Below, in pieces: positions 6,771-25,007 of a DNA stretch of 64,000 nt. Within the stretch, counting starts at the first letter, position 1. Every line of letters starts with the position of its first letter. The position numbers and the translations under genes are program-made. This stretch comes from Gammaproteobacteria bacterium (lineage in GTDB: Bacteria; Pseudomonadota; Gammaproteobacteria; Tenderiales; Tenderiaceae): the NCBI GenBank assembly GCA_021731365.1, contig JAKFXL010000015.1, positions 1 to 64,000 on the forward strand, given 5' to 3'. The notes beneath the pieces are model-generated. The model was not told the origin of the DNA, did no database searches, and saw only the letters and a list, made by a program, of their open reading frames with translations.

Positions 6771-7072
6771 CTTGGGTAGATCGGTCCCCTCAAGCCTGAT
6801 TTTTAAGTATTCACCTCAGACTATATCGGATAACGGACGCAAGCCCCAAGGGTTGGTTGAGCAATTGTCTGAAAATTGGGGCGCTAGTTGCGCCAGCCAC
6901 CCGATTATCAAGAGGAGATTGATTATGAATAGTAATGCCATTGTGGCATTGCTGCGGTATTCTGTGACGCAATTGTAGGTTAAATCAGTTGAGTGCACAT
7001 GCCATTTTCCAGTGAGTGTTGTCTGGGGTGGCGGGGTGCTGTTTCCTTAGCACTATATTAAGGAGTATTGTT
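6771..7072. other. Divergent intergenic region
   Basis: About 300 bases between the minus-strand PilZ-like gene and the plus-strand efflux operon. It must hold both promoters. No convincing coding sequence, RNA gene or paired -35/-10 element stands out. Confidence 0.5.
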
Positions 7073-8158: not shown

Positions 8159-11100
8159 ACCTGACTCGTCTCTCGCTCGGCAACCCGGTGGCGGTGGCTG
8201 TCGCGGTACTACTCGTTGTGCTGTTTGGGTTTATCAGCATGGAGCGGTTACCGATCCAGCTGACGCCAGAAGTTGAAGAACCCAAGATCACTATCTCCAC
8301 CGTCTGGCGTGCGGCGGCACCGGAGGAGGTGGAGGCGGAGATTGTCGAGCCGCAGGAGGATGCGCTACGCGGTCTGCCAGGGTCGACCCAGATTCTGGCG
8401 GAGGCGAGTCGCGGCCAGGGCAAGGTGACACTCACCTTTGCCGTCGGCACCGATCTGCGCCGCGCCCTATTGGAGGTGATGAGCCGCCTCAATCGCGTCG
8501 CCCGTTATCCTGCCGATGCCAACGAACCTGTGATCAGCACGGTGGGGGGGGATAGCCGCCCCATCGCCTGGTTCATCATCAAGGCGGACGCGGAGGCGGG
8601 CAACGACCGCGATATTGCCTCCTATCAGGACTACCTTGAAGAGGTGGTGCAGAGCCGTTTTGAACGAGTGCCCGGCGTGGCGATGTCCGAGGTGCGTGGT
8701 GGTCGGCAGAACGAACTGCGTATCACCTTCGACCCCTACAAGGCCGCCAGTCTCGGTGTGCAGCTGCCGGAGGTGGTAAAGCTGGTCGGCGCCAAGGATA
8801 GCTCCGGCGGTTTTGCCGATGTGGGCAAACGCCGCTATACCCTGCGTTATACCGGCGCCTACAAGGCCGACGATCTGGCCGGTCTGATCATCGACTGGCG
8901 TGAGGGGCGGCCGGTCTATCTGCGTGATGTCGCCACGGTGGCGGTGCAGATGGAGGATCGCGCCAGCTTTGTGATCCAGAACGGCCAGCCCGCCATGGCG
9001 ATCAACGCCCATCGCGAGACCGGCGTCAACGTGCTGGAGGTGATGGCCGGGCTGAAAGAGGCGGTGGAGGAGCTGCGCGAGGGGCCGCTCAAACGGGCCA
9101 ACCTCACCATCACCCAGGTCTATGACGAGACCGACTACATCAACAACTCCATCTCCATGGTGGTGGAGAATCTGCTGCTGGGGATTCTGCTGGCGGTGGG
9201 CGTGTTGTGGTGGTTCTTCCGCCGGTTGCGCGCGACGTTGATTGTGGCGCTGGCGATCCCCATCTGTGTGGTGGGCAGCTTTATGGTGATGGATATGGCG
9301 GGGCGTACGCTCAACGTCATCTCCCTGGCTGGGCTTGCCTTTGCGGTGGGCATGGTGCTGGATGCGGCCATTGTGGTGCTGGAGAATATCGTCCGGCTGC
9401 GCGAACAGGGCGAGAGTAATGAGGCGGCTGCTGAACATGGTGCCACCCAGGTGTGGGGGGCGATTCTTGCTTCCACCGCCACTACGGTGGCGATCTTCCT
9501 GCCGGTGCTGTTTCTGGCTGACGAGGCGGGGCAGCTGTTTGCCGATCTGGCGCTGACCATCTCGGTGGCGGTCTGCCTCTCGCTGCTGGTGGCGGTGGTG
9601 GTGCTGCCCACTGCGGCGATGAGCTGGCTCAAGCAGACCAAACTCGCCGACCCCCACGAGAAGTGGTGGGATGGCATCACCGCCCGCATCATGCAGATTA
9701 CCGGCCCGACAGGCCGTAAGTTCTGGATTGTGGGCTTGCTGACCCTGCCGCTGCTGCTGGTCTGGTTTATGGTGCCCAAGGCTGACTACTTGCCGGAGGG
9801 GAACCGTAACCTGATCTTCAGCTTCATCAATCCACCGCCAGGTGCCAACATCGGTTACATGGAAAAGGAGATGGGGCAGCAGGTGGCGGCGGCGATGGCC
9901 CCCCATCTCAGCGGCGAGAAGCAGCCGCAGGTGAAACACTACTTTTTTGTGGCCTTCAATAACGGCATGTTCATGGGGGCGCAGACCGCTGACGCCACCC
10001 GCACCGGCGAGCTGGTGCCGGTGATCAACCAGCTGATCGCCAGCTTCCCCGATACCATCGGCTTTGCCTTCAAGGCGTCGCTATTTGGTGGGCTGGGCGG
10101 TGGCCGCTCCATTGATATCAACATTCAGGGGCGTGACCTCGAGGGGTTGCTGCAGGCCGGTGGCGCGGGTTTTATGGCAGTGCGTGAGGCGTTTGATTCC
10201 ATGCCGCGCCCATTTCCGGGGCTGGATCTGGCGGAGCCGGAGCTGCGTCTGGTGCCCGACGAGCGTCGTCTCGCCGAGGTGGGCTGGAACCGTGGCGACA
10301 TGGGTGGCATCACCCGCGCCCTCGGCAGTGGGCTTTACGTGGCGGATTACTTTGATGGCGACAAACGCCTCGACGTGATCCTGCGTAGTCAAAGCTGGGA
10401 TACACCGGAGGCGTTGGCGGCGATCCCGCTGGCCACACCTGAAGGTGGCATTCAACCGCTCGGTTCACTGGTGAGCGTGGAGCGCACCGCCGGACCGGAT
10501 CAGCTGCGTCGCATCGACCGCCGTCGCACCGTCACCCTGCAAGTGCGGCTGCCGGAGGGCATGTCGGTGGAGGAGGGGCTGGACCTTATCAAGGCCAAGG
10601 TTGCGCCTGCCATTGAAGCCGCATTACCGGAGGATGGCTCCCTCAGCTACGCCGGTTCAGCCGACAAGCTGCGCGACATGCTCAAAAACATGGGCAGTAC
10701 CTTCCTGCTTGCCATTGTCATCCTCTACCTGCTGATCAGCGCCCTGTTCCGCTCTTTCAAGGACAGCCTGCTGGTGCTGCTGACGATCCCGCTGGCAACC
10801 GTGGGTGGGGTGCTGGCGCTCTGGGTGCTCAACCTCGTCGGCCTCAAACAGCCAATGGACCTGCTGACGATGATCGGTTTTGTCATCCTGCTGGGCTTGA
10901 TGGTCAACAACGCCATCCTGCTGGTGGACCTGGCCCGTAGCGCCGAGCGCGAAGGTGTTGCACGTCGTGATGCCGTGCAGCAGGCGATCCGGCGACGGCT
11001 GCGGCCAATCCTGATGAGTACGCTCACCACTATCTTTGGCATGTTGCCGCTGGTGCTGATGCCGGGTGCCGGGACTGAACTCTATCGCGGCCTGGGGGCG

Positions 11101-11199
11101 GTGATTGTCGGTGGTATGGCGGTGAGTACGCTCTTTACGTTGATTCTGTTGCCGAGTCTGTTGCGGCTGGGGGAGGGCAAACAGCCGCAACTGAGGTGA
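8155..11199 (+). CDS. RND efflux pump, inner-membrane subunit (HAE1/AcrB-like)
   Basis: A 1014-residue proton-driven RND pump with the usual 12 membrane helices and two large periplasmic loops. The GTG start overlaps the adaptor stop by 4 bases, so the two are translationally coupled. The helix-4 motif reads GMVLDAAIVVLEN (D403, A404) where AcrB has VDDAIVVVEN, so the position of AcrB Asp408 is alanine. In helix 10 MVNNAILLVD (N918) replaces AcrB Lys940. The core proton relay is therefore not of the AcrB type; related RND clades share such changes. The substrate is unknown. The adaptor and pump form a two-gene operon that probably uses an outer-membrane factor encoded elsewhere. Confidence 0.93.
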   Translation: MNLTRLSLGNPVAVAVAVLLVVLFGFISMERLPIQLTPEVEEPKITISTVWRAAAPEEVEAEIVEPQEDALRGLPGSTQILAEASRGQGKVTLTFAVGTDLRRALLEVMSRLNRVARYPADANEPVISTVGGDSRPIAWFIIKADAEAGNDRDIASYQDYLEEVVQSRFERVPGVAMSEVRGGRQNELRITFDPYKAASLGVQLPEVVKLVGAKDSSGGFADVGKRRYTLRYTGAYKADDLAGLIIDWREGRPVYLRDVATVAVQMEDRASFVIQNGQPAMAINAHRETGVNVLEVMAGLKEAVEELREGPLKRANLTITQVYDETDYINNSISMVVENLLLGILLAVGVLWWFFRRLRATLIVALAIPICVVGSFMVMDMAGRTLNVISLAGLAFAVGMVLDAAIVVLENIVRLREQGESNEAAAEHGATQVWGAILASTATTVAIFLPVLFLADEAGQLFADLALTISVAVCLSLLVAVVVLPTAAMSWLKQTKLADPHEKWWDGITARIMQITGPTGRKFWIVGLLTLPLLLVWFMVPKADYLPEGNRNLIFSFINPPPGANIGYMEKEMGQQVAAAMAPHLSGEKQPQVKHYFFVAFNNGMFMGAQTADATRTGELVPVINQLIASFPDTIGFAFKASLFGGLGGGRSIDINIQGRDLEGLLQAGGAGFMAVREAFDSMPRPFPGLDLAEPELRLVPDERRLAEVGWNRGDMGGITRALGSGLYVADYFDGDKRLDVILRSQSWDTPEALAAIPLATPEGGIQPLGSLVSVERTAGPDQLRRIDRRRTVTLQVRLPEGMSVEEGLDLIKAKVAPAIEAALPEDGSLSYAGSADKLRDMLKNMGSTFLLAIVILYLLISALFRSFKDSLLVLLTIPLATVGGVLALWVLNLVGLKQPMDLLTMIGFVILLGLMVNNAILLVDLARSAEREGVARRDAVQQAIRRRLRPILMSTLTTIFGMLPLVLMPGAGTELYRGLGAVIVGGMAVSTLFTLILLPSLLRLGEGKQPQLR

Positions 11200-11258
11200 C
11201 GGTTGTCTGTATTGAAAAGTACCGGTAGGTCTTGCTGGGTACTTTGGATAATCGGCAA

Positions 11259-11276
11259 GACTGCCACAAGGCAGTC
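11259..11276. other. Hairpin between convergent genes
   Basis: GACTGCC-ACAA-GGCAGTC, a perfect 7-bp stem with a 4-base loop, sits between the 3' ends of the RND pump (plus) and the FadL-like gene (minus). Its position suits a shared transcription end, but there is no T tract on either side. Confidence 0.35.
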
Positions 11277-11294
11277 CTGCCTGGCCTTAATGGA

Positions 11295-12620
11295 TCAAAA
11301 TGATCGAGTGTATTGAACGCTCAAAATATCGACACTATTGGCATAGCTCCCCACGAGATTACCCTTGCCGCTGGCGGCCTGCATATCGGCAATCGTTGAC
11401 TCCTTTATAAACAGGTGGGCGTAACCAAAGTCGAATGCCTCATTGGTGGAGGGTTTGTACTGGCCACCTAGTGCGACCCAGGTACGGTCGTTGTCAGGGA
11501 TACGGGCAGTGCGGTGTGAATCGGGCACGGGGGCCTGATCAAGTGCCACCCCGGCACGTGCCGACCATTTGGGGTTGTAGTGGTAGTTGGTGCCGGCTGA
11601 GAAGCGCCAGGTATTGGCCCAGTTTTCATTGACGGTCTGTACATTGGAGCCGTTTGAACGGTCGATTTTCAGCTGTTTAAAGACCCCCCAGCCAGTCCAG
11701 GTGGCGTCAGCCATAAAGTCCCATTGACTGTTGAGTTGGTGAAAGCCGCTGATGGAAAATGAGTCGGGCATACTGATAGGGAGTGTGACATCGCCGTTTG
11801 CCAGTTGTGGGCTGGCGGCCATGGCGGTGGGCACGTTGTCAAAGGAGACTGTGCCATTCAGGGTGTATTTGATTTTTGAGCGGTAGGCGAGACCGATACG
11901 TGTTTTCGGGTCCAGGTTGATTAACGCCCCAAAGTTATAACCCCAGGCAGCGTCATCGCCACGAATAGTGCTAACCCCCTCCTGATTTGCCCCGCCAATG
12001 GCTGTCATCAGAGCAGATCCCCCGGCGGCAAAGGCTGCAGCACTGTAGTTGACCGCGCTGGTTAACTCACCTTTTATAAACTGGTAATCCAGGCCCGCCC
12101 CCAGTGAAACCATCTTGTTGATGTCGTATGAGACTGAGGGGTTTAGATTGATGGTTTCGATTTTGGACTTCACCGCCTGGAAACGCCCGATCCAGTCATC
12201 GTTATAGTTGGTCTGTAAACCAAAGGGGACGTTAATGCCCAGACCTATTCGGGTCTGAGGGTCCAGCTCCATGGCAAAGTAGGCGTTAGGTACCAGCGCC
12301 CAGCTGCCTGCATCACCGCCAGCACCACCGGCTGTTTGGAAGGTGGCGGCTGTTGATGCGCCGTTGTCGGTAAAATGGACCGTTGGTTTTATAAGATGGC
12401 CCGCCAGTACCGCCTGTTTATCACTCAGGCGTGACATGCCTGCCGGATTGAAAAAGATAGTGGCGGCGTCATCGGCGCTGGCAGCACCACCGGCATATGC
12501 GTTGCCTAAGCCGCTGCCGCTCTGTTCAATCAGCGCAAAGCCAGCTGCAGAGGCGGTGCCTGATGCGATGAGCAGTGTCCCGGCCAGCGGCCAGCATTTA
12601 GAGGTTATTGTGAACATCAT
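11295..12620 (-). CDS. FadL/OmpP1/TodX-type outer-membrane transporter
   Basis: A 441-residue outer-membrane barrel for uptake of hydrophobic compounds such as long-chain fatty acids or aromatics. The signal peptide ends near SGTASAAG. The mature N-terminus starts AGFALIEQSGSGLGNAYAGGAA, then DDAATIFFNPAGMSRL, which is the FadL-family N-terminal hatch signature (NPAG). The rest alternates in amphipathic strands, and the chain ends in aromatic Phe (VQYTRSF), as outer-membrane barrels do. It stands alone as a monocistron, 530 bases downstream of the metabolite cluster on the same strand. A functional link to that cluster is possible but not shown. Confidence 0.93.
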   Translation of the reverse strand: MMFTITSKCWPLAGTLLIASGTASAAGFALIEQSGSGLGNAYAGGAASADDAATIFFNPAGMSRLSDKQAVLAGHLIKPTVHFTDNGASTAATFQTAGGAGGDAGSWALVPNAYFAMELDPQTRIGLGINVPFGLQTNYNDDWIGRFQAVKSKIETINLNPSVSYDINKMVSLGAGLDYQFIKGELTSAVNYSAAAFAAGGSALMTAIGGANQEGVSTIRGDDAAWGYNFGALINLDPKTRIGLAYRSKIKYTLNGTVSFDNVPTAMAASPQLANGDVTLPISMPDSFSISGFHQLNSQWDFMADATWTGWGVFKQLKIDRSNGSNVQTVNENWANTWRFSAGTNYHYNPKWSARAGVALDQAPVPDSHRTARIPDNDRTWVALGGQYKPSTNEAFDFGYAHLFIKESTIADMQAASGKGNLVGSYANSVDILSVQYTRSF

Positions 12621-13150: not shown

Positions 13151-14851
13151 TCAGAAATGTGCTTCCAGTACCATCATGGGTGCATTGGTATCTTTAGTGA
13201 TGCCAGGTGGCGTGCCATATTTGTTGCGCCAGTATTCGTAACCGATGCCCGCATAAAACGTACCCTGCTTAGAAAACAGAGTGCCAACATCAAACATAAA
13301 ATAGGCACGGGCAAGCGTTTCAGCCCCGGTTTCCATGTCAAAACCATCTTTGCCTTTCTTTCCAATGTAATTAACAATTCCGTCGAACTTGGCACTGATG
13401 CTGGTGATAGGGAGACTCCACGCGGCACTGATGCCATAGGTGTCGTCGAACGTGACTGACTTTCCAGTAATACCGTTATGATTTTTTTCTGTGCGGTAGA
13501 GTAGGCTGATTTCAAGGAAGCCAGGGACATCGAAGTTCAGTGTTGGGCCAAACACGGTTTTTTGAACACGTGGACCCATGTTGTCGTTTTTCGAGTTTAA
13601 ATCGACCCCAACGGTAATTCCGACATCCTTGAGAATGCCCCCGCCCATTTTGATGTTGGTCATGGTGCCCAAGGCGATCTTATGCCGATAGACGGCATAG
13701 ATTTCCTGCGCACCACCCCCGCCATTAAGGGCAGGGTCTTTGTCGTCCGACACCATAAAGTCGGTGGCAAAGAAGTTTGTACCGTACTTGTAGCCGCTGA
13801 CATGGGTGAATGAAAAAATATCTTTGTGTATCTTGTTGGGATTCGTCGGCTCGGTAAATTCGTTACCTATTCGGTAGCTGACAAAGGTATCTGACCAGTC
13901 CGCTGCGAAGAGCTGTTGCGATGTAAAGAGAGCGCCGATGATTAAGCTAAGCATCTGTGTACGTGAGGTGAGCGGATGTGATTTACCCTGCGTTGCGGAA
14001 CCAATGGTCCCGAGGTCGATGGGATCGTCAATCATATGTTTAGTTGAGACACTGTTTTCATCTATTAGTGGCTCAGCTGTGATACCTAATATGCGACATG
14101 CGTTAATCCATGCCACTTGCTCCCATGTTGTCGAATCAAGATTTAGTACGCGGTACTTCGCTAACTCAACAGCTGGATGCTGGATAGGGTATTCAGTGCC
14201 GAACAATAGGCGATTAGGCCCAAGACGTTCCAGTGCGTACTGAATTACCCGCGTATAGCCTCCCGATGTCTCGAGGAGTACATTATTGGTTTTTGAAATT
14301 AAATCGATCCCGTACAAGTCAATGTGTCCAATACCGCTGTGTCCAAGTACAAAGTTTACCGATGGGAACTGATTCGCGAGCACGACTAAGTCGGTCACGG
14401 AGAAACCGTTGCGAATTAGACAATGCAGGTAGACAGGGTGCCCAACTGTGGCAGCGATTTCGATCAGGGCCGAGGTGCGACTGTCGTTTAATGCAACACC
14501 GTGTACCGCCGGAGCAAGCTCCAGTCCGCTGAATTGGTTCGCCCGATCTCGGTAATGGTCAGGGTCGCGACGCGGGTTCGCAAAGTAGAAAGGCACCAAC
14601 CTGCCTTTTGCACGGGTACAGGCATCCAGCACAAAATCGTTATCGGCATCGACATCGGCGAAACCGCCTTCAATAATTTGCCGCGATAGCTGCCCGAGTG
14701 GGATTGTTCCGCCTGCTGATACCACAGCGCATTTGATATGAAGGTCATCCATCATTCGTATCAGGCGATTTAAGGAAGTATTGTCCGGTATGAGCCGTGC
14801 GTGGAAATCGAATATTTTCTGTTCGTGCACTTGTTTATGAAGAATAGGCAT
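13151..14851 (-). CDS. Amidohydrolase fused to a Tsx-like outer-membrane channel
   Basis: One uninterrupted 566-codon frame joins two unrelated proteins. Residues 1 to about 260 are a TIM-barrel amidohydrolase of the amidohydrolase_2 group: DFHARL (D15, H17), YLHC (H143), GHSG (H171) and GTEYP (E220). Usual members have DxHxH and GxDxP, so the second His and the final acidic ligand differ. Residues about 300-317 form a typical signal peptide (MLSLIIGALFTS...FA|ADWSD), and 318-566 is a nucleoside-channel (Tsx-like) barrel ending in Phe (VLEAHF). No ribosome site precedes internal Met300 (13954). A signal peptide in mid-chain makes a single two-domain product puzzling; internal initiation, processing or a recent gene fusion are options. 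In benzoxazole pathways an amidohydrolase closes the ring, which fits this cluster. Confidence 0.85.
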   Translation of the reverse strand: MPILHKQVHEQKIFDFHARLIPDNTSLNRLIRMMDDLHIKCAVVSAGGTIPLGQLSRQIIEGGFADVDADNDFVLDACTRAKGRLVPFYFANPRRDPDHYRDRANQFSGLELAPAVHGVALNDSRTSALIEIAATVGHPVYLHCLIRNGFSVTDLVVLANQFPSVNFVLGHSGIGHIDLYGIDLISKTNNVLLETSGGYTRVIQYALERLGPNRLLFGTEYPIQHPAVELAKYRVLNLDSTTWEQVAWINACRILGITAEPLIDENSVSTKHMIDDPIDLGTIGSATQGKSHPLTSRTQMLSLIIGALFTSQQLFAADWSDTFVSYRIGNEFTEPTNPNKIHKDIFSFTHVSGYKYGTNFFATDFMVSDDKDPALNGGGGAQEIYAVYRHKIALGTMTNIKMGGGILKDVGITVGVDLNSKNDNMGPRVQKTVFGPTLNFDVPGFLEISLLYRTEKNHNGITGKSVTFDDTYGISAAWSLPITSISAKFDGIVNYIGKKGKDGFDMETGAETLARAYFMFDVGTLFSKQGTFYAGIGYEYWRNKYGTPPGITKDTNAPMMVLEAHF

Positions 14852-14891
14852 TGGAGTTCCCCAGTAATCATAGTGATCTGTTATTTAATTA

Positions 14892-15509
14892 TTACGCTAT
14901 GTTGAACACGTCCTCATAATTCAATCTTGGCAAACGATCAAACCACGCATGGGTACCCGGTTTGCCAATATTCATTACTACTAGCGGTTGGTGTTTTCCG
15001 TCAGGGAAAAACTCCCTCTGTAATCTGCTTACATCAAATCCAGTCATCGGTCCCGCCGCAAGACCGGCTGCTCGAACGCCGAGAATGAAGTAGGCTATTT
15101 GGAGCGTGGCGTTGAGTCGCGCCGACGTCACTCTAACCCCCTCGTCCGCGAACATCTCATTTTTAGCTTCCGGATAGACGGGGAACTGTTCTGGGAGGTG
15201 CTCATGGAAATCGATGTCGGCCGCGAAGATAATGGTCACTGGTGCTTTTGCGGTCTTCTCTCCATTGGCGCCATACATACAGTCGACCAACCGCTGGCGT
15301 GCTCGCTCTGAGCGAACGACCAGAGCACGCAAAGGCTGCTGGTTGAGAGACGTGGGTGCCCATTTCACCAGTTCATAGATTGTCTTGAGCTGTTCATCCG
15401 ATACCGGGTCATCAGTGAATCGATTTGCGGTCCGGGCGGTCAAGAACAGAAGGTTCTGTGCCGACTGATCCAAAATTATTTCGCTGTTGTTCTGTATTGT
15501 GTCGATCAT
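14892..15509 (-). CDS. Nitroreductase-family flavoprotein, RutE/HadB-like
   Basis: A 205-residue FMN-dependent nitroreductase-fold enzyme closest in pattern to RutE (malonic semialdehyde reductase) and related small reductases. Visible family features are the FMN phosphate region (TARTANRFTDDPVSDEQLKTI), KWAPTSLNQQPLRALVV, the mid-chain ARLNATLQIAYFILGVRAAGLAAGPMTGFD, and the C-terminal MNIGKPGTHAWFDRLPRL. It lies 33 bases after the PaaK-like ligase and 40 before the amidohydrolase fusion, so it is co-transcribed with both. In this setting it could reduce a nitroso, nitro, quinone-imine or aldehyde intermediate of an aminophenol pathway; that is inference. A stress or generic reductase role cannot be excluded. 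Confidence 0.88.
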   Translation of the reverse strand: MIDTIQNNSEIILDQSAQNLLFLTARTANRFTDDPVSDEQLKTIYELVKWAPTSLNQQPLRALVVRSERARQRLVDCMYGANGEKTAKAPVTIIFAADIDFHEHLPEQFPVYPEAKNEMFADEGVRVTSARLNATLQIAYFILGVRAAGLAAGPMTGFDVSRLQREFFPDGKHQPLVVMNIGKPGTHAWFDRLPRLNYEDVFNIA

Positions 15510-15542
15510 CGTTATCTCCTTAATTTATAAAACACGCTATTG

Positions 15543-16889
15543 TTACTGACAGATGAGACCCTGCTCCCACTCATCCAGCGATGAGCAGAGGAATCGAGGC
15601 TTAACAAAGGGGGTTTCACGGAGCAGGAATTCGCGTGATACCAGTGCGCCATGAGGTACGGCGAGTACTTCGGCGGGTATGCCGAGGTTTTTTTCGAGTT
15701 CCTGCCGAAGATGCCTTCCGCACTCTTGCATCACCGCCGGTTCTGCTTCGATTTCCAGGCGTAACCGGTTGTCAGCCATCACGCCTCGCCAGAATAAAGC
15801 TCGGAACTCCATGGGGAGGCGATAAACCACCTCGTCAATCGAGCTCTGATTCAGTTCAATTGCAGTGTTGCCAGTTAAACTCGACGGTCTGCCCAGTACC
15901 CGGATTTTCGGTAGCACCCAACCGCAGGAGCATGGTTCATCCCAAAGTTCCACGATGTCTTCTAAGTTGTACCGTATCAGGGGCATTGCCTCTCGGTAGA
16001 GGGTTGTGACTAGCAGTTGTCCGCGACCATGTCGTGCGATGGTGCCGGTTAGAGGATCGTATATTTCCATTAAGAATCGGTCAGCCCAAGGGTGCAATAC
16101 CCCTTCGCAACACTCGCCAGCGAGCGATGTTGTCTCTGTTGATCCGTAATCCTCTACCACTGGCGCGCCCCATATTTCACTAATGCGCTTGCGCTTTGCC
16201 GGGCCTATGGGTTCACCGGCCACCACAAATGCACGCAACGATTTCCCAACGTCCGTAGGTTCAAGTCCACGGGCCCACGCAGCGGCGGCCCAGAACAGCG
16301 GTTCACTCGGCAAGCTCCACGTCACGGAAATTCCCAAGCTGCTAAGGAGATGTAGGACGCGTGGATAGGACATCATGCTTGTGCGGTTGTCCGCCGGCAC
16401 TATTGTGGCACCGCACATCAGTGCCGCATTGTGCATTTGGTGAGCGGTGGTCGCCATTGAATATGGAGTTTTGACTAGTACCCAATCATCACGATTGAGC
16501 CGGGCGGCGCCGCGGGTGAAGCGGTCGACACACTCCCGCCAATCTGCTTCCGTTTGAAACGATGCAATCGGTTGTCCCGTTGTCCCGCTGGACTCATGGT
16601 ATGTCGCCACCTCGTGGCGTGGTATGGCGAGAAATGCATAGGGGTAACCGTTTCTGAGATCCTCCTTGCTGGTAAGTGGGATGTCAGAAAACTTGACTCC
16701 GGCAGAGAGTCGCTGTTCGTAAAAGGGGGATTGTCGAGCCACCGAAACTGTTCTACCAACAGCTTCGTTTTGCAGCTTCGCAAGCGCCTCGAATGTTGAC
16801 CAGTCCCCAATACGCGGCCATGGATTCAATGTCATAAAATGGTTCACCTTTGACTCTTTTGTTGTGCTTGGTAACTTCGGGACGATCAT
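15543..16889 (-). CDS. Adenylate-forming ligase, phenylacetate-CoA ligase (PaaK) type
   Basis: A member of the ANL superfamily with PaaK-like layout, expected to activate an aromatic or short carboxylic acid as the acyl-AMP and then the CoA thioester. Motifs: the P-loop HESSGTTGQP, the adenylation motif VEDYGSTETT, and the Cys-containing DEPCSCGW typical of the PaaK branch. The C-terminal domain ends in FVKPRFL. The first ATG (16889) has no ribosome site; starts near 16835-16841, preceded by AAAGG, look better and would shorten the chain by 16-18 residues. It is one of two ligases in the cluster. A plausible substrate is 3-amino-4-hydroxybenzoate or the acid it is joined to (inference). Confidence 0.88.
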   Translation of the reverse strand: MIVPKLPSTTKESKVNHFMTLNPWPRIGDWSTFEALAKLQNEAVGRTVSVARQSPFYEQRLSAGVKFSDIPLTSKEDLRNGYPYAFLAIPRHEVATYHESSGTTGQPIASFQTEADWRECVDRFTRGAARLNRDDWVLVKTPYSMATTAHQMHNAALMCGATIVPADNRTSMMSYPRVLHLLSSLGISVTWSLPSEPLFWAAAAWARGLEPTDVGKSLRAFVVAGEPIGPAKRKRISEIWGAPVVEDYGSTETTSLAGECCEGVLHPWADRFLMEIYDPLTGTIARHGRGQLLVTTLYREAMPLIRYNLEDIVELWDEPCSCGWVLPKIRVLGRPSSLTGNTAIELNQSSIDEVVYRLPMEFRALFWRGVMADNRLRLEIEAEPAVMQECGRHLRQELEKNLGIPAEVLAVPHGALVSREFLLRETPFVKPRFLCSSLDEWEQGLICQ

Positions 16890-16935
16890 TTATTAGGCGC
16901 TCAGGCAGCTGATTGCACTGTATCTGACGATCCCG

Positions 16936-18096
16936 CTACGATCTTGTGGCTCCGGAAAGATGTAGTAGCGCGAAACCGGCCAGCACGCCGATCGCCGCTA
17001 CCCAGCCCAGTGCCGTAACGGACAGCGCTGTTACCACGATACCTCCCACGGCGGCACCGACCGCCGCACCGATATAGATGGCCGATGTGTTGAGTGCAAA
17101 CGCCATTGGCATCTGGGTCGGACACATTGCAGCGATGCGTGAAAATTGAGCCGGTGTGAATGCCCAGCCGCTGAGTCCCCACATTGCGACTGCAGCAGCC
17201 CCCACGGCAAGTGCCATCGTTCCTGATGGTAACCATGTCGCAACGGAGAGCACTGCCAACGACGCGGCGAGCACGAGTACCACTCTCTTCGTCGTCGAGT
17301 CCCCTCCTATGCGGTCGGCGGAGCGGCCACCCAAAAGATTCCCGATCATGGCGGCAACGCCGTACACAAACAGAAACCCGGCCGCAAGACGTCGGCCCGA
17401 GCCGTCGAGCTCGGAGACGATCGCCGCGAGGTATGTAAAGGCGATGAAGGTGGAGCCAACGATCACAAGTGATTGGATTAGTACCAGGCCAACATCGGGC
17501 TGGGTGGCAGGGCGAAGGCGTTCCAGGAAGCTTGGCCCATCGGAGCCAGCACATTTTGGCAGTGTGAGTGCTGAACCGATCATGCAGATGAGGCCCAACG
17601 TCGCAACAAATCCGAAGCCCGCACGCCAGCTGGCCATTTCACCCAGGATTGCACCTACGGGTACGCCTAACACCAGCGAGACAGTCAACCCACCGGTAAC
17701 AACTGATATGGCCTTTCCGCGATGTGCGTCTCCACTTAGCTCTGCCGCCATCGCCATTGCGATCGGACTAAAAACCGCCGCAGCAGCAGCGGCCAATACA
17801 CGCATGACTAGCAATGTTGCGAAGTCCGGTACAAGCACTGTCCCTGCATTGGCAATGGTAAACATACCCATACTGGCCAGTAGAATGCGCTTTCTCTCTA
17901 CGCGTTCCGTTACCGAGGCGAGGATGGGGGCACCCAGGGCATATACCAAGGAAAATACAGTGGCTTGAATGCCTGCCACTGCGAGCGAGACATGCAGATC
18001 ATCTGCCATCAATGGCAACACACCCGCAACAATAAAATTGTCCGTTCCGATGGCGAAGGTTCCAAGTGCGAGAGGAAAAATACGTATCCAGTTCAC
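16936..18096 (-). CDS. MFS transporter, DHA1-type exporter
   Basis: A 386-residue major-facilitator protein with 12 predicted helices. The N-terminus (LALGTFAIGTDNFIVAGVLP) and motif A-like ASVTERVERKRILL match the drug-H+ antiporter (DHA1, Bcr/CflA or AraJ-like) group; GVPVGAILGEMASWRAGFGF resembles motif C (GPxxGG). The GTG start is preceded by GGGGTAA, and only 4 bases separate it from the upstream ligase stop, so the coupling is tight. Its place inside a biosynthetic cluster makes export of the end product across the inner membrane the simplest role. The Tsx-like channel could complete the route across the outer membrane (inference). Confidence 0.9.
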   Translation of the reverse strand: MNWIRIFPLALGTFAIGTDNFIVAGVLPLMADDLHVSLAVAGIQATVFSLVYALGAPILASVTERVERKRILLASMGMFTIANAGTVLVPDFATLLVMRVLAAAAAAVFSPIAMAMAAELSGDAHRGKAISVVTGGLTVSLVLGVPVGAILGEMASWRAGFGFVATLGLICMIGSALTLPKCAGSDGPSFLERLRPATQPDVGLVLIQSLVIVGSTFIAFTYLAAIVSELDGSGRRLAAGFLFVYGVAAMIGNLLGGRSADRIGGDSTTKRVVLVLAASLAVLSVATWLPSGTMALAVGAAAVAMWGLSGWAFTPAQFSRIAAMCPTQMPMAFALNTSAIYIGAAVGAAVGGIVVTALSVTALGWVAAIGVLAGFALLHLSGATRS

Positions 18097-18100
18097 CTGT

Positions 18101-19894
18101 TTACCCCGTGTGAGTTCGTTGTAAAAGAGTCACAGGCTCGGCATAAGCGCACTCAGAGGCAGCATCCTCATGGCCGACGGCCAGAATGTTTTCGTAACGT
18201 TTTCTAAGCACTCGTTTCAAAACCTTTCCGGTGGGGCCAGTCGGAATATTTCGAGGATCTTTGATAATTTCAAGGAAGGCCAGTGGCTGTTGTGAGTAGG
18301 ATTGCAGGATATTGTTTGCCCTCTCCAAGAGTTGGCGCGACTCCACGGACTCCAATGATGGGGTGACGATTGCAATTGGCAGCTCCGCATCGCCGAATGG
18401 AGCCGCTATCACCACGCAATCCGAGATTTCCGGCAGTTGTGCGAGCAGAATCTCTTCCATCAATAGGGAATAGGCAGGAGTGCCTGGAGTGTTAATTACG
18501 TCCACCGCCCGGTCCATGTGGTAATAGAGATCGTCTTTGTCTCTGTATGCCATGTCGCCCGAGAGCCAATATTCGCCAAGCCGACTCCGGTAGGTGCTGT
18601 CCGAATCATTCCAGTAACCGTGTGTTACTGTTGGACTCTTCACACCGAGAAACCCAATTTCGTACGGTTCTGCCAATGTCCCATCCTCTCGCAATATTAC
18701 AGGCTCGGCGAACAGATGGCGCTTTCCTACGCACCGGTCGTGCCGCAACGAATCGGCGGTAGTGATCTTGAGGAATTGTGCGAAGCCGAGTTCAGATGAT
18801 CCGAGCCCATCAATGAACGTCGAGCCTGGTCGACGCTCGCCATCAACATATCGGTGACCCGCTTTGACTAGAGGTTCAATATGTCGTGCGTGGGCCGAGT
18901 CTCCTGTGTTGAACCAAGTACTCACCGATGCGAGGCAATGTGGGTCCGGCGCAAGTGTGGCGATTTCAGCGTACGTAGCGCTGAATGCGACCACTTCGGT
19001 TGGTCGATACTGTCCAATGGCCTTGATCACATTGCTGCCGCTGATATCCGACAGTGCGATAACAGGCGTTCCGAACAGCAGTGGCCCTGCGACAAAGCTC
19101 ATACCTGCGGAGTGAGATTGTGGAACAGCCGACAGCAGGACTTGTGGCTCGGCCCCGGTGTGCCCCTCACTTACCATGTCCGCATTCTGGTTAGGAGCGA
19201 GTGACATTCGTCCTTCGCAAGACGCACGCAATAGCCAGCGAATCCCCTCAATACTTTGCCGATGTGTCCAAATCACTGCCTTTGGTATACCGGTGGTACC
19301 TGAGGAGTGGCAGATGAGCACCGGGTCATCGGGGCCATGGTGGTAACGCATGTCGTCTGACAGGCACCGGTTCCCGATTGCCCCTACCTCGGAACTAATT
19401 ACTTTAATCCGGAAGTTCACGCTGTATTCGCCAAGGTATTCGTCTAGCCGAGGGGCATGTTCCCTATCACTATATAGTCCTACCACGCTGGTTCGCTTAC
19501 ACAGATCCGCGGCCAGTTCTGCTGACATGAGTCCGTTAATCAAAACTGGAATTGCCCCAATCTGCGATAAGGCGAAGAATTGCAGCACATCCTCGAAACT
19601 GTCTTTGATGTATATGGCAACCCTGTCGCGAGGGCGAATCCCCTGCGCGAGATACCACACTGACCACGCTTGTGCGAGCTCGTTTAGCTCAGCCAACGAG
19701 AATTGGCTCTTGGCGGTTCCATCAGCGTCTATTAGTGCCGTGTCTGTAATTATAAATGGTAGATCCGGATGCGGATTATTGGCGGTGGCAGCTATCAGCA
19801 CATTGCCACCTCCCAGTTTCGGGTCACTCGCGAAGCGGAGTCGCGTTTCCGTTGATGTCTGTGTTGCGCTTGTGAATGGCAAGTTCCATGTCAT
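18101..19894 (-). CDS. Adenylate-forming acyl-AMP/acyl-CoA ligase
   Basis: A 597-residue ANL-superfamily ligase. The ATG at 19894 is chosen because GAGGAG sits 7 bases upstream; an in-frame ATG 15 bases earlier lacks this. Motifs: CHSSGTTGIPKAV (P-loop), FIDGLGSSELG (A5 region), YWLSGDMAYRDKDDLYYHMDR (A7/A8) and the C-terminal catalytic lysine in PTGPTGKVLKRVLRK. It is longer than the PaaK-like ligase and of a different branch (acyl-CoA synthetase / acyl-AMP ligase). Two ligases of unlike type suggest that two different acids are activated, as needed to join an acyl group to an aminophenol acid. It lies between the monooxygenase (16 bases) and the MFS gene (4 bases). Confidence 0.9.
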   Translation of the reverse strand: MTWNLPFTSATQTSTETRLRFASDPKLGGGNVLIAATANNPHPDLPFIITDTALIDADGTAKSQFSLAELNELAQAWSVWYLAQGIRPRDRVAIYIKDSFEDVLQFFALSQIGAIPVLINGLMSAELAADLCKRTSVVGLYSDREHAPRLDEYLGEYSVNFRIKVISSEVGAIGNRCLSDDMRYHHGPDDPVLICHSSGTTGIPKAVIWTHRQSIEGIRWLLRASCEGRMSLAPNQNADMVSEGHTGAEPQVLLSAVPQSHSAGMSFVAGPLLFGTPVIALSDISGSNVIKAIGQYRPTEVVAFSATYAEIATLAPDPHCLASVSTWFNTGDSAHARHIEPLVKAGHRYVDGERRPGSTFIDGLGSSELGFAQFLKITTADSLRHDRCVGKRHLFAEPVILREDGTLAEPYEIGFLGVKSPTVTHGYWNDSDSTYRSRLGEYWLSGDMAYRDKDDLYYHMDRAVDVINTPGTPAYSLLMEEILLAQLPEISDCVVIAAPFGDAELPIAIVTPSLESVESRQLLERANNILQSYSQQPLAFLEIIKDPRNIPTGPTGKVLKRVLRKRYENILAVGHEDAASECAYAEPVTLLQRTHTG

Positions 19895-19910
19895 GGCGTT
19901 TCTCCTCAAA

Positions 19911-21149
19911 TTATGTGGTAACGGCCAGTTCAGCGTCGTAGCCGAAGAGCCATTCCTGGTTATTCAATTTTTGGTTGACGGAGATCGCCCTGTCCCGGTT
20001 TTTGCGGGCATCGCCGTCGGAAAGATGGAAGGTGCTGCTATTCTCACGTGAAATGCGCTGTACTTCGGCGGTACGTGGTGCACGAACATTTTGGTAACGG
20101 GTTAAGCAGTCGGAAATACTCAACGTCGTATCGCTCATACATTTGGCCAGGGCAAATGCATCCTCTATCGCTTGGTTCGCTCCCTGTGCCATGAATGGGA
20201 GCATCGGATGGGCGGCGTCTCCGACAAGGGTTACATATTGGCTACTCCAGTGTGCAATGGGGTCCCTGTCATGCAGAGCCCACAGGTTGACTCCGTCCAG
20301 CGCGCCAATGAGTCGCTGTACCTCTTCATTCCATCCTTGGTATGCCACAGCCAGATCCTCGATACGACCAGGTGCGGTCCAGCTCTCCGCAATCGCCTCG
20401 CCATGCTGGATTGTTGCGCCGAAGCTGTACAGGCGGCCACTTGCAATGGGATAACAGACGCAGTGTTGCTTGGGTCCGAGCCACAACCTTACGTTGATCC
20501 GGTCGGCGAAATGTTTTATGCGCTCAGCAGGGATAATGCCTCTATATATCATTTGACCTGAGAACGTTGGTTTGTCTCGTACCAGAGATGACCGCACCGC
20601 AGACCGTATCCCATCGGCACCGATGACAACGTCGCCTCGCCAAGATCTCCCGTTAGCGAAGCGTAATATCACCTCTCCATCCAGCTCAGTTACTTCCACA
20701 CATTGTTGGCCAAGATAGATCGAGTCCGAGGGAAGCAACTCCAACAACACCCGATGTAGATCAGCGCGATGGAATGTGTAATATGGAGCGCCGTACCTTC
20801 GGGCACACCCATTTCCAAGCGTTGTACGAGCGAGCAAGCGATTATCATCCCAGCGACGCATCTCCGTTGCACCTGGCCGAACCGCTACCTGCTCCAGGCG
20901 TTTCGCTATACCCAATCGATGCAGCAATCTGGCGGCGTTTGGTGATACTTGAATTCCCGCTCCGACTTCACCGAGCCGCTGAGCTTGCTCAAAGATTTCG
21001 CAGGCGATTCCGTGTCGCAACAGTGCAGATGCGACAGTCAGACCACCAATTCCGGCACCAACCACAGCAACCCGACTGGGTCTGGTACTCTGACCATCAA
21101 GGTGTGGACTATTTTTCAAGGCAGAACTCACTAATGGGATAGCCGACAT
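19911..21149 (-). CDS. FAD-dependent aromatic monooxygenase (salicylate hydroxylase-like)
   Basis: A class A flavoprotein hydroxylase of about 412 residues. It has an N-terminal Rossmann fold VAVVGAGIGGLTVASALL (GxGxxG), the DG motif (VVIGADGIRSAVRS) and the GD motif (VTLVGDAAHPMLPFMAQGAN), which is diagnostic for NAD(P)H-dependent ring hydroxylases such as salicylate 1-hydroxylase and 3-hydroxybenzoate 6-hydroxylase. I favour the ATG at 21149; a TTG at 21176 is possible but has no ribosome site. Either start overlaps the 3' end of the dehydroquinate-synthase-like gene (41 or 68 bases), so translation is probably coupled. In the cluster it would hydroxylate, or oxidatively decarboxylate, 3-amino-4-hydroxybenzoate or a derivative (inference). 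Confidence 0.9.
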   Translation of the reverse strand: MSAIPLVSSALKNSPHLDGQSTRPSRVAVVGAGIGGLTVASALLRHGIACEIFEQAQRLGEVGAGIQVSPNAARLLHRLGIAKRLEQVAVRPGATEMRRWDDNRLLARTTLGNGCARRYGAPYYTFHRADLHRVLLELLPSDSIYLGQQCVEVTELDGEVILRFANGRSWRGDVVIGADGIRSAVRSSLVRDKPTFSGQMIYRGIIPAERIKHFADRINVRLWLGPKQHCVCYPIASGRLYSFGATIQHGEAIAESWTAPGRIEDLAVAYQGWNEEVQRLIGALDGVNLWALHDRDPIAHWSSQYVTLVGDAAHPMLPFMAQGANQAIEDAFALAKCMSDTTLSISDCLTRYQNVRAPRTAEVQRISRENSSTFHLSDGDARKNRDRAISVNQKLNNQEWLFGYDAELAVTT

Positions 21150-22209
21150 GTCGGTCTGCCTGCGGCAGGTAACCAAGAACCTTGTCGCCGCGCTTCAGCT
21201 CCGTACTATTAAGAACGGTGCCACCCGGCCCGAGTACCCGGACATGCCAATCATCTTGGAGTATGAGGTTTACCGCCGTACCGTCCAGAGCCACGGCATC
21301 GATAGAGATGAGAGGACGCGATTCGATTTTTACGCGCCCGACAATCGCCAGGCGGGTCTGCCCCTTGACGTCTACCGCTAGCACACTGCTGCCTGCTTCG
21401 AGTTCGGACAGGTAGTTGGTACGTTCACCGGCTACTAGCGTATATGACATGATCGCCCCAGCATTGACGCGAAATGGGCGGGTCGGCATATATGGCAACG
21501 GGTGTGTCTCACTGACACACAGGATCATTCCCTTCGAGTGTGAACCGACAAGAATGCCTTCGTCTTTGCGGAAGTAGGTGCAGGTATCGACACAGGCACG
21601 TTCGCCCATGCCTATGTGATGAGTACCAGTGATTTCAAGTTCGACAAGGCTGAGACTGTCTGGCTGCTCACCGCTCGCAGCTTTAAGTTCGGTGGCATCC
21701 CCCACCTTGGTTGCGGCCATCATGACCCCATCCGATCCATGCTCAAGGACGCCGAAGATGATCTTGGCCTCAATGGCGTCGGTGGCAGTAGTGATAATAT
21801 TGCCATCGGCTTTAGCCGCAGCGGCAATCACAATCTCAAGGGGGATTTTGGTAGGATCGCGGAAGGACAGAAGACTCCACTCCTCTGTGCTCGCCGCATG
21901 ACAGGCATCGTCAAGGGTGCTGGCGTCAATGATTTCAACGTAACGTCCAAATTTTACATCGGGGAATCGTCGGGCTAGCTCGGACGTTGGCCCGTGCTTG
22001 TCACCGATGATAACTAAATCGACCGAGGTGAGATCATCTGGCAGAGTTTTGTTATCAACGAATAAAATCCTTTTTATTGTCGGGGGCAGCACTGCAATAT
22101 CTGCCAGACTGTCGGTAACTATTCCGTCAATCCGCTGATGCACGGACTCCTCTATAACCGCTGCCTTTTCTTCACGAAGTGCTCGAACGTCTATCCAAGA
22201 TAGCTTCAC
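21109..22209 (-). CDS. 3-dehydroquinate synthase II family enzyme (GriH-like)
   Basis: A 366-residue protein of the archaeal-type dehydroquinate synthase II family (MJ1249/AroB' and GriH). Landmarks: KLSWIDVRALREEK at the N-terminus, GDKHGPTSELARRFPDV, GTHHIGMGERACVDTCTYFR, GSHSKGMILCVSETHPLPYMPTRPFRVNAG (as two blocks), and AGERTNYLSELEAGSSVLAVD. In Streptomyces griseus GriH converts the aldolase product into 3-amino-4-hydroxybenzoate; in archaea the homologue makes dehydroquinate. The GTG start follows AGGGGA. Its partner aldolase gene lies 81 bases upstream, as in known 3,4-AHBA clusters. Gammaproteobacteria normally use AroB for aromatic amino acids, so a specialised role is favoured. Confidence 0.92.
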   Translation of the reverse strand: MKLSWIDVRALREEKAAVIEESVHQRIDGIVTDSLADIAVLPPTIKRILFVDNKTLPDDLTSVDLVIIGDKHGPTSELARRFPDVKFGRYVEIIDASTLDDACHAASTEEWSLLSFRDPTKIPLEIVIAAAAKADGNIITTATDAIEAKIIFGVLEHGSDGVMMAATKVGDATELKAASGEQPDSLSLVELEITGTHHIGMGERACVDTCTYFRKDEGILVGSHSKGMILCVSETHPLPYMPTRPFRVNAGAIMSYTLVAGERTNYLSELEAGSSVLAVDVKGQTRLAIVGRVKIESRPLISIDAVALDGTAVNLILQDDWHVRVLGPGGTVLNSTELKRGDKVLGYLPQADRHVGYPISEFCLEK

Positions 22210-22290
22210 GATGGTTCCCCTTTTCCGACTAGCCTATTCCTGACGATAATGTCTTTATTGAGATCATCCTGCATGACCTCTTACCAGATG

Positions 22291-23118
22291 CTAAGCAATA
22301 GCGAGATGTGCTCCCAAAACGCTTCTGTTCATAAGCGTCCTCGCCGGATTGTGAGCAGAATGAACGAGACTGGAAACTTTTCTGGCCATAGCGCCGGGAT
22401 CGGGGGCATGGAAGATGTTCCGTCCCATTGCGACCCCGGCGACACCTGACTTCATGACCTCGTAAACAAATTGCTCCGTCTCATCCTGATTGTTCATGCG
22501 AGGGCCGCCTGCGACCAAAATCGGAATCGGGCAAGATCGGACAACGTCAGCCATAGCGTGAACGTCACCGACATAGAGCGTCTTCACAACATCTGCACCA
22601 AGGTCGGCCGCCAGAGAAACAGCATGCGCCACAAGATTCGGATCGCGGGGATTGTCGATTCTAGGCCCCCGTGGGTACATCATGGCCATCAATGGCATAT
22701 TCCAAAAACTGCACGCGTCTGAGACTGCCGCTAAGTCAGCGATTTGCTGTTTTTCGTCCTGGGACCCTATATTGACGTGCACGCTGACTGCATCTGCACC
22801 AAGCCGCAGTACTTCTTCGACGCTCGCCACGAGATACTTTGCATCCGGATCCGGTGCGTGAGAGGTGCTCGCGCTCAGGTGAACAATAAGCGCCATATTT
22901 TTGAACCAGCAGTGGTCCACGTAGCGAAGCCGACCTTTGTGCAGTACCACAGCATCGACTCCATTGAGGGCCAGTTGACCTACCAAGTGGCTAAGCCCAT
23001 CTGCTGAAACAATCGGGCCGTCTGAAATTGAGTGGTCCAGTGGAACGGTGAGAAACCGCTCCCCATGGCGATAGAGTTGATGGAACCGACGTTGACGACC
23101 GAAAGAGTAATTGATCAT
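22291..23118 (-). CDS. DhnA-type class I aldolase (GriI / ADH synthase-like)
   Basis: A 275-residue DeoC/FbaB-family aldolase. The ATG at 23118 has AAGGGG 9 bases upstream; a TTG at 23154 does not. Active-site marks are PLDHS (D28, H29), MMYPRGPR (Y148) and the Schiff-base lysine K179 in GADVVKTLY, with the phosphate-binding VAGGPRM and GVAMGRNIF loops near the end. Homologues are GriI, which condenses aspartate semialdehyde with dihydroxyacetone phosphate on the way to 3-amino-4-hydroxybenzoate, and the archaeal ADH synthase MJ0400. Together with the downstream GriH-like gene it makes a complete predicted 3,4-AHBA module. Confidence 0.92.
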   Translation of the reverse strand: MINYSFGRQRRFHQLYRHGERFLTVPLDHSISDGPIVSADGLSHLVGQLALNGVDAVVLHKGRLRYVDHCWFKNMALIVHLSASTSHAPDPDAKYLVASVEEVLRLGADAVSVHVNIGSQDEKQQIADLAAVSDACSFWNMPLMAMMYPRGPRIDNPRDPNLVAHAVSLAADLGADVVKTLYVGDVHAMADVVRSCPIPILVAGGPRMNNQDETEQFVYEVMKSGVAGVAMGRNIFHAPDPGAMARKVSSLVHSAHNPARTLMNRSVLGAHLAIA

Positions 23119-23174
23119 TTTTGGCACCCCTTGATATCCCGTGTTTTTAGTCAAGACACGCCTGTTTTTGACTG

Positions 23175-24152
23175 TCAGCAGTAATTATTAGAGAGAGGAT
23201 TTTTCTCCGTTTTTGAGTCCTCTCTCCCACCGCTTTTGCCTCTAGCTCCAGCGAGTGCGTTTGCCAATCGCGCCAATTTATCCGGATTGACAACGGTAAT
23301 GATTTCATTGATATGTTGGTCATCGGCGTGAATTTGAATCACTGCGCGCAGCACACCATCAGTGCATACGATGAGCGCAGGCCAGCCGTTGATTCCACGT
23401 ATCTCAACGTCGTATTCTGGTGGGTCGGCACAATTCAAATACCCCAGGTAAAGGCGTGCTACAGCACGTGCGCCAATTAACGGACGACTAGCTGCTGTTG
23501 CTTTTCCACCACCATCGGCACGTGCGACAACGTCGTTGGCGAGCAGGCGCGTAATACTCGCTAGGTCGCCTTGCTGGCAGGCCATAAGAAAGGCGTTGAG
23601 AAGTTCGTGATGGCGTGCTGGTGAAGCTATCGTAAACTTGCGTGTATGTAGTGACTGTTTGGCACGACGGTAATTCTGGCGGCATGCCGCTTCGCTGCGG
23701 CCGACGATTATTGAGATCTCTGCATGGTTGTAATCGAATACTTCATGTAATAGATAAACGGCACGCTCCAATGGCGTAAGTGTGTCAAGTAATGTGATAA
23801 AGGCGAGTGAGATAGATTGCAATCGTTCTAAATCAGCTTCTATCGAAGTGCCGCGTGTGGCGTCGTCACAATCTTTGTCGTATAAATCGCTGGCAATGGG
23901 TTCAGGTAACCATTGGCCAGGGTAGTACTCGCGTTGTGCGCGTGCGCTTTTGAGATGGTCTAGGCATAGGCGCGTGACCATCGTAGTCAGGAAGGCCGCT
24001 GCATTGTGCACGTCATCTCGCGGTTGCGCGTACCAGCGTGCGAAAGCTTCTTGCACTGTGTCTTCGGCTTGTGCTGAGGATCCCAACATGCGATAGGCAA
24101 GACCAAACAGGCGCGGACGTTGTGCTGCGATAGGGTCTAGTTGGGCGCTCAT
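23175..24152 (-). CDS. ECF41-family sigma factor with SnoaL-like C-terminal domain
   Basis: A 325-residue ECF sigma factor: sigma-2 (about 10-75; LFGLAYRMLGSSAQAEDTVQE), sigma-4 (about 125-180; LTPLERAVYLLHEVFDYNHAEI) and a C-terminal SnoaL-type domain of about 110 residues. The ECF41 marks are present: WLPEP in the linker, DGGGK, and NPDKL near the end. In this family the C-terminal domain acts as a built-in regulator in place of an anti-sigma factor, and members usually control adjacent genes. It is the first gene of the run, 56 bases ahead of the aldolase, so it probably drives the cluster. I could not place the family's TGTCACA-type promoter upstream of it with confidence. Confidence 0.93.
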   Translation of the reverse strand: MSAQLDPIAAQRPRLFGLAYRMLGSSAQAEDTVQEAFARWYAQPRDDVHNAAAFLTTMVTRLCLDHLKSARAQREYYPGQWLPEPIASDLYDKDCDDATRGTSIEADLERLQSISLAFITLLDTLTPLERAVYLLHEVFDYNHAEISIIVGRSEAACRQNYRRAKQSLHTRKFTIASPARHHELLNAFLMACQQGDLASITRLLANDVVARADGGGKATAASRPLIGARAVARLYLGYLNCADPPEYDVEIRGINGWPALIVCTDGVLRAVIQIHADDQHINEIITVVNPDKLARLANALAGARGKSGGREDSKTEKNPLSNNYC

Positions 24153-25007
24153 GATAGGTTGGGCCTCGGTATCTTTATCGGTACGATACGTAATCGTATA
24201 ATTCCCTCAGGTGTATCCCAGCATCTCTGTATATTTTCCTTAACATTGAAATATGCGTCACAAGCAGTAGTGTGCCTACTATCCATAAGAACAGTGTTCA
24301 TACCCTCCCCCCTTTGTTGCTACTTCCCGGACTTAAGTGATTTCAACTTTAGTGCGCCTCTAGATAAATCTCCAGGATTGCGGAAATCGATTTCTCATTT
24401 CTTAGATACCTGGGACCGGCAGTTTGTCACCACTGTCACCATTGCTCTGTGTCTCCGAAGGTGTCAGTTATCTCGTTTGCTTAAGTGGTTTCCTGGCAGG
24501 TCCATCCAGTGTCTTTTGACTTCTTACTGACATTGACGAATCTGCATGTCAAAACGTGACGTGTGATCAATCATGATTGTGATCTTTGTAAGGGTCAATT
24601 TTTTGGCGATACATATCTGACGGGTATTTTAGTGCTCACATTTTTAATGTATCGGTTTTAACTGGATGCTTGTTGCTGTGCAGTAGCTCTCGCCACTATT
24701 AACAGTAGCGTGCGGGTGTTGTGGGGGCGTCAAACGGGGAGGGATTTTTTTGTTGAAGTAGTATTGTGTTCTGACTGACCTATGTTAGGCGCTGTTTTTG
24801 GAGCAATTGGGGTCATCTTCCATGAATCCTGGGCTGAAGGGTGGACTTTTGTGAAAATGGCTTTATCCTAACCTAGATTCATCCTCCTTCACCCTCTCAT
24901 AGTCACATCACTATGATGCCGGACTATTTCGAATAGAGCGTTTCTCAGCGCTGCCATTGCAACGGTAACTTGGGATTTAATTCGCCGAATAAAAAGGAAA
25001 GTTTAGT
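24153..25007. other. 855-base intergenic region
   Basis: The stretch lies between the divergent ECF41 sigma gene and putP. It should contain the promoters of both. A 129-codon plus-strand frame (24141-24530) overlaps the sigma gene start, lacks a ribosome site and shows no motif, so it is not called. TGTCAC occurs twice on the plus strand near 24424-24438 but points toward putP rather than the sigma gene. No RNA gene is recognised. Confidence 0.4.

Follow-up and report, generated by a model that had tools for sequence, protein, structure and literature searches.

A gammaproteobacterial operon with a fused amidohydrolase–barrel gene, probably for a benzoxazole derived from 3-amino-4-hydroxybenzoate

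Gene content and organization

The 64,000-nt stretch of gammaproteobacterial DNA analysed here (the window) carries on its minus strand, at 13151–24152, what is probably a horizontally spread operon for a benzoxazole derived from 3-amino-4-hydroxybenzoate (3,4-AHBA). Nine same-strand genes with short gaps or overlaps had been described in the original prediction; all nine open reading frames (ORFs) are open, with spacings of 1–81 bp and one overlap, and Pfam and NCBIfam matches agree with the families named. In the order of transcription these are an extracytoplasmic function (ECF) sigma factor, an aldolase, a 3-dehydroquinate synthase II-like protein (DHQS-II), a flavin adenine dinucleotide (FAD) monooxygenase, a FadD-like enzyme of the acyl-CoA synthetase/nonribosomal peptide synthetase/luciferase (ANL) superfamily, a major facilitator superfamily (MFS) protein, a PaaK-like ligase, a nitroreductase and an amidohydrolase fused to an outer-membrane barrel.

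The locus was compared with the best 80 of 486 DHQS-II relatives from a scan of a genome collection (loci numbered with L), genes in high-GC loci being called by codon-position GC. The closest, L011, belongs to a gammaproteobacterial groundwater metagenome-assembled genome from Hainich and possesses all but one of the nine genes, in conserved order and at 68–81% identity.

3,4-AHBA precursor genes

GriI and GriH are established as making 3,4-AHBA, and a corresponding supply had been predicted here. The DhnA-type aldolase (22291–23154, minus strand; DeoC/DhnA), BagB/FevI/GriI-like and assigned to the first step, scores 390 bits with the NCBIfam BagB_FevI model, and the DHQS-II protein (21109–22209, minus strand), a BagC/FevH/GriH-like candidate 3,4-AHBA synthase for the second, scores 584 bits with BagC_FevH. 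Each score is under the exception-level cut-off set for its model (500 for BagB_FevI, 750 for BagC_FevH). The DHQS-II protein scores 557 bits with the broad DHQS-II family model, at most 244 with the other five DHQS-II models and 370 with Pfam. Identity to the L011 proteins is 73% for the aldolase, which probably starts at an internal ATG near 23118 as in that relative, and 81% for the DHQS-II. The synthesis pair thus lies inside the cluster, as closoxazole-type clusters require.

Archaeal shikimate-route enzymes occur in both families, and supply of aromatic amino acids by an archaeal-type route was considered for the two proteins. It is hardly credible, given that the best-scoring models are secondary-metabolic, the operon context is likewise, and an aroB-type synthase is present elsewhere in the same genome; grouping with archaeal-type aromatic amino acid enzymes in a host lacking aroB had been named in advance as an argument against the cluster. 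A role in primary metabolism is unlikely because of this aroB-type gene and the rarity of DHQS-II in the phylum (two of 398 sampled Pseudomonadota genomes, this one included), and a housekeeping shikimate role was ruled out on the same grounds.

PaaK-like ligase

The PaaK-like aryl-adenylate ligase (15543–16889, minus strand) is of the NatL2/ClxA/BagE type, in line with the benzoxazole-type ligase that had been foreseen. It is 42% identical to NatL2 over 422 positions (373 bits), nearly as close to AjiA1, and 31% identical to ClxA (PDB 9s3l); it scores 447 bits with the BagE_FevW model and keeps the catalytic lysine as K430. Entry 9s3l was taken to be ClxA because Y218, Y219, T222, N226 and K393 sit at the positions given in the ClxA paper (PMC12519233).

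NatL2 E235, which contacts the hydroxyl of 3-hydroxyanthranilate (3-HAA), corresponds to D247 in the window ligase, and ClxA N226 to S255. At the E235 position, actinomycete loci with additional 3-HAA genes have Glu, as in NatL2, and all five loci with a complete HxH amidohydrolase have Asp. This distribution suggests that 3-HAA is not the donor for the window ligase.

Amidohydrolase domain

The Amidohydro_2 domain (56 bits) forms residues 1–258 of the fused gene product and lies at about 14078–14851. Its AlphaFold2 model is confident, with 3cjp as the best fold match. Grouping with decarboxylases such as ACMSD had been put forward as evidence against a benzoxazole role; identity to ACMSD and decarboxylase structures is only 13–16% although the fold is common to them, and the domain has neither the close kinship nor the canonical ligands of that group. 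Amidohydro_2 proteins canonically bind metal through HxH, His, His and Asp. In the window protein the site is degenerate, HxH being replaced by HxR and Asp by Glu (Glu220).

Three states of the site occur in the family: HxH with a beta-5 His (L021, L022, L027, L047 and L075), HxR with a beta-5 His (the window and L011), which is intermediate between the two actinomycete forms, and HxR, rarely RxR, with Val at beta-5 (the remaining members). Nearly all members have Glu as the last ligand, and H117, H138, H171 and D178 are invariant. The state of the site largely tracks a ligase pocket residue. Metal use may be weakened or altered, and the three natural states make the metal need of condensing amidohydrolases testable by comparison of natural variants.

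In 26 of the 80 loci the family stands alongside 3,4-AHBA genes, which supports its co-inheritance with them. It was found in one of 369 sampled Gammaproteobacteria genomes, namely this one; no relative was detected among 94 genomes related to the host.

That no ring is closed was also weighed. The product would then be an open, bagremycin-like ester or amide of 3,4-AHBA, and the amidohydrolase would hydrolyse or decarboxylate a side product. The BagE/FevW match of the ligase, that enzyme being a former of open esters, agrees with this, as do the missing canonical ligands and the fold shared with decarboxylases. We nevertheless regard an open product as unlikely: in most loci that carry both genes the amidohydrolase adjoins a ligase of the PaaK-like type, and it is this enzyme pair that produces the benzoxazoles of the clx and pfx clusters (PMC12118335).

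Fused gene of a putative cyclase and a barrel

The ORF at 13151–14851 (minus strand) was correctly described as an amidohydrolase fusion; the partner can now be added, since residues about 317–566 (about 13151–13903) form a beta-barrel outer-membrane protein. This part reaches 44% identity with proteins encoded on plasmids, and more distant homologues are annotated OmpK or DUF5020. Its AlphaFold2 model has low confidence (predicted local distance difference test score about 45) and was read only for beta strands. On atrazine-degradation plasmids the homologues adjoin ATP-binding cassette (ABC) transporter genes, which fits a putative small-molecule channel.

Unfused actinomycete amidohydrolases end near residue 258. 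In the window the frame continues into the barrel through 59 stop-free codons and in L011 through 57, the fusion being 68% identical over 559 amino acids. The linker is strongly diverged between the two, each having a hydrophobic signal-like segment just ahead of a conserved ADWSD. Read-through into one amidohydrolase–barrel protein is favoured because the internal starts of the barrel have no ribosome-binding site (+0.5 to −3.2 kcal/mol, compared with −3.5 or better for six of eight window genes) and because both genomes keep the linker free of stops and in frame. The corresponding estimate of chance is about 0.02 (0.15 × 0.37 × 1/3), a rough combination of our own.

It is quite possible that the gene specifies two proteins, the barrel arising from an internal start and the common frame having no function. 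In each genome a signal-peptide-like segment starts at an internal Met (residue 300 in the window, 325 in L011), and the barrel homologues elsewhere are separate genes; the lack of ribosome-binding sites at these starts and the retention of the open frame despite divergence of its residues argue the other way. The ORF gives a definite example, open to testing, of one frame from which an enzyme and a presumed exit channel are made.

A more elaborate scheme, which we think distinctly unlikely, would make cyclase and exit channel one polyprotein. The internal signal segment would send the barrel across the inner membrane and be cut, leaving the cyclase, drifted from the canonical metal site, tethered to the membrane beside the exporter, and the second ANL enzyme would diazotise the aminophenol product.

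Second ANL enzyme

The FadD-like ANL enzyme (18101–19909, minus strand) had been called an acyl-AMP/CoA ligase. Membership of the AMP-binding family holds; acyl joining is in doubt, as the best curated model is AvaA6, a 3-aminoavenalumate diazotase (399 bits, under the cut-off of 975, so that the protein does not qualify as an AvaA6 equivalog). It scores 464 bits against PDB 9xb8, and the closest homologues found (43–46% identity) are in Streptomyces 3-HAA/type II polyketide synthase (PKS) clusters. Ligases from other 3,4-AHBA and 3-HAA clusters score alike on the AvaA6 model (303–458 bits), and for this reason both a diazotase and an acyl ligase are viable. The enzyme may be diazotase-type rather than acyl-joining.

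Were it a CreM/AvaA6-like ATP-dependent diazotase, its target would be the free aminophenol on either 3,4-AHBA or the benzoxazole, the nitrite would be environmental or respiratory, and the pathway would yield a diazo or diazotisation-derived compound. The substrates of published diazotases are 3-amino-4-hydroxyphenyl acids that derive from 3,4-AHBA, and roughly one half of ava-like clusters have no nitrite genes of their own (PMC10777205). A diazo product is possible, if somewhat unlikely, considering how far the score lies under the cut-off, the equal scores of the other ligases, and that none of the operon's genes was recognised as nitrite-forming or AvaA7-like.

Relatives and spread

The hosts of the window and of L011 are not close (DnaG 55% identical), and the conservation of eight genes in order is far beyond chance. 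Apart from L011, the DHQS-II relatives kept for comparison are from actinomycetes (66–73% identity), where the operon has its nearest kin. Fifteen actinomycete loci combine aldolase or DHQS-II, amidohydrolase, PaaK-like ligase and monooxygenase, the amidohydrolase match being partial in L015 and L049. The window monooxygenase is 49–58% identical to those of the amidohydrolase-bearing actinomycete loci.

In trees with midpoint rooting only, the gammaproteobacterial pair falls among actinomycetes, the amidohydrolases with L021, L022, L027, L047 and L075 (support 98/92) and the monooxygenases with L025, L037, L057 and L061 (95/90). This fits a horizontal origin of the operon with some mosaicism.

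A chorismate pyruvate-lyase (Rv2949c-like) gene follows the fusion by 82 bp in L011, the closest relative (11202–11768 of locus L096, plus strand), which points to 4-hydroxybenzoate as a partner acid there. The same lead was followed in the window's own genome, where only a ubiC-like gene beside ubiA was found.

3,4-AHBA genes, amidohydrolase, NatL2-like ligase and 3-HAA synthesis genes occur together in L012, L014, L016, L067, L080 and L085, the pattern that would be expected for a mixed 3-HAA/3,4-AHBA benzoxazole. The 3-HAA genes of the actinomycete loci specify a chorismate-binding/glutamine amidotransferase (GATase) protein, an isochorismatase and a short-chain dehydrogenase/reductase (SDR).

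DHQS-II genes also lie beside genes for adenylate-forming enzymes on plasmids of Klebsiella michiganensis from an insect gut (L010) and of Sinorhizobium medicae (L009), in the latter next to a nonribosomal peptide synthetase (NRPS) gene. We know of no characterised product for either.

Comparison with known systems

The clx (Clostridium cavendishii) and pfx (Pyxidicoccus fallax) closoxazole clusters contain a 2-amino-3,7-dideoxyheptulosonate-synthase-like aldolase, a 3,4-AHBA synthase (ClxE and ClxB being the proposed 3,4-AHBA-making pair), a ClxA-kind ligase, a second AMP ligase and an amidohydrolase (PMC12118335). All five enzyme types have counterparts in the window operon, putative ones in the case of the second ligase and the amidohydrolase. 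The operon differs in its additional monooxygenase, nitroreductase, MFS protein, fused outer-membrane barrel and ECF gene. Its ligase is of the ClxA type but closer to NatL2; its candidate for the ClxC/PfxA kind of second ligase is the ANL enzyme whose nearest model is a diazotase; and its Amidohydro_2 domain, encoded beside the ligase, is a candidate for the ClxD/PfxB type.

With clusters of the nataxazole, AJI9561 and A33853 type it shares the PaaK-like ligase and the amidohydrolase partner. Those pathways use 3-HAA, whereas the window has 3,4-AHBA enzymes and no 3-HAA synthesis genes among its nine; such genes are present in several actinomycete relatives.

Fourteen actinomycete loci (L012, L014–L016, L025, L037, L055, L057, L061, L067, L080, L082, L085 and L086) carry aldolase, DHQS-II, amidohydrolase, PaaK ligase and monooxygenase as in the window. 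In contrast to it, their amidohydrolase is unfused with the beta-5 His replaced by Val, several have 3-HAA genes and an aspartate kinase, none has a close copy of the second ANL enzyme, and only L016 has a nitroreductase homologue.

The bagremycin/ferroverdin and cma/ava clusters share with the window the 3,4-AHBA enzymes, a BagE-like ligase and an AvaA6-like ANL enzyme. To our knowledge the bagremycin and ferroverdin clusters have no amidohydrolase; none is in the cma/ava gene table, and the window operon lacks the ava genes for type II PKS and nitrite.

The original prediction named the right kind of cluster and, as a whole, holds for the most part. What appears from the sequences to be new with respect to closoxazole- and nataxazole-type clusters is the gammaproteobacterial form with a gene that fuses a putative cyclase and a barrel, of which we know of no earlier report in the part of the literature covered. 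It would extend 3,4-AHBA/benzoxazole chemistry to the Gammaproteobacteria, and its ligase is intermediate between those of nataxazole and closoxazole type.

Proposed pathway

From the family assignments and the synteny we infer the reactions, substrates and product as follows. The PaaK-like ligase would adenylate an aryl acid, either 3,4-AHBA itself or 4-hydroxybenzoate, and couple it, in an ester linkage, to the aminophenol of 3,4-AHBA; the ester can rearrange to an amide. Closure of the benzoxazole ring, with elimination of water, would fall to the amidohydrolase domain. Hydroxylation of a 3,4-AHBA ring would be the task of the FAD monooxygenase, modification of a carboxyl or amine group that of the second ANL enzyme, and the nitroreductase would keep or make a reduced form. 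The product would leave by the MFS protein and then, in Gram-negative hosts, by the outer-membrane barrel sharing the cyclase ORF.

A benzoxazole is favoured because the 3,4-AHBA enzymes are identified by model score with aroB separate, because the ligase resembles NatL2 and ClxA and keeps its lysine, because the amidohydrolase accompanies 3,4-AHBA genes and the five-gene set is shared by about 15 actinomycetes, and because the operon is kept in a second, not closely related gammaproteobacterium. The clx and pfx clusters supply a characterised precedent with the same enzyme types (PMC12118335), and the chorismate pyruvate-lyase-like gene adjoining the L011 operon is a further reason. Several points weigh against it: the canonical metal site of the amidohydrolase is degenerate, its assignment as a condensing enzyme derives from synteny, the ligase differs from both NatL2 and ClxA in its pocket residues, and the roles given to the monooxygenase, the nitroreductase and the second ANL enzyme are guesswork.

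Other genes of the operon and its surroundings

The FAD-dependent aromatic monooxygenase (19911–21176, minus strand; FAD_binding_3) resembles 3-hydroxybenzoate 6-monooxygenase and salicylate hydroxylase (NCBIfam PRK08163, 302 bits) and probably starts at an internal ATG near 21149. The predicted exporter is a Cmx/CmrA-like MFS protein (16936–18096, minus strand; MFS_1 150 bits; Cmx/CmrA 214 bits, below the cut-off). The nitroreductase-family flavin mononucleotide (FMN) reductase (14892–15509, minus strand) is RutE/malonic-semialdehyde-reductase-like (NCBIfam PRK05365, 247 bits, cut-off 152) and has a 75% identical counterpart in L011.

The SigJ/ECF41-like sigma factor (23175–24152, minus strand; SigX4 308 bits) had been counted as part of the cluster. 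It is not conserved: ahead of the aldolase in L011 there is only non-coding DNA and, on that contig, an apparent transposase end. It is a possible local regulator and an optional part. The ECF41 promoter motif TGTCACA-N13..19-CGTC does not occur in the window. A 50-codon ORF, MNTVLMDSRHTTACDAYFNVKENIQRCWDTPEGIIRLRIVPIKIPRPNLS, at 24149–24301 (minus strand) is preceded by a strong, purine-rich ribosome-binding site. Its stop codon and the start codon of the ECF gene overlap (ATGA), and the pair looks translationally coupled.

Adjoining the operon, within 7016–12620, are a resistance-nodulation-division (RND) efflux pair (HlyD-like and AcrB-like, plus strand) and, on the cluster's strand, a FadL/TodX-like outer-membrane protein, all of which could serve the same product. 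On the other side, a Tae4-like type VI secretion amidase effector (57 bits) is specified at 26856–27622 (minus strand), and a 140-amino-acid ORF of no known family just downstream of it could encode its immunity protein.

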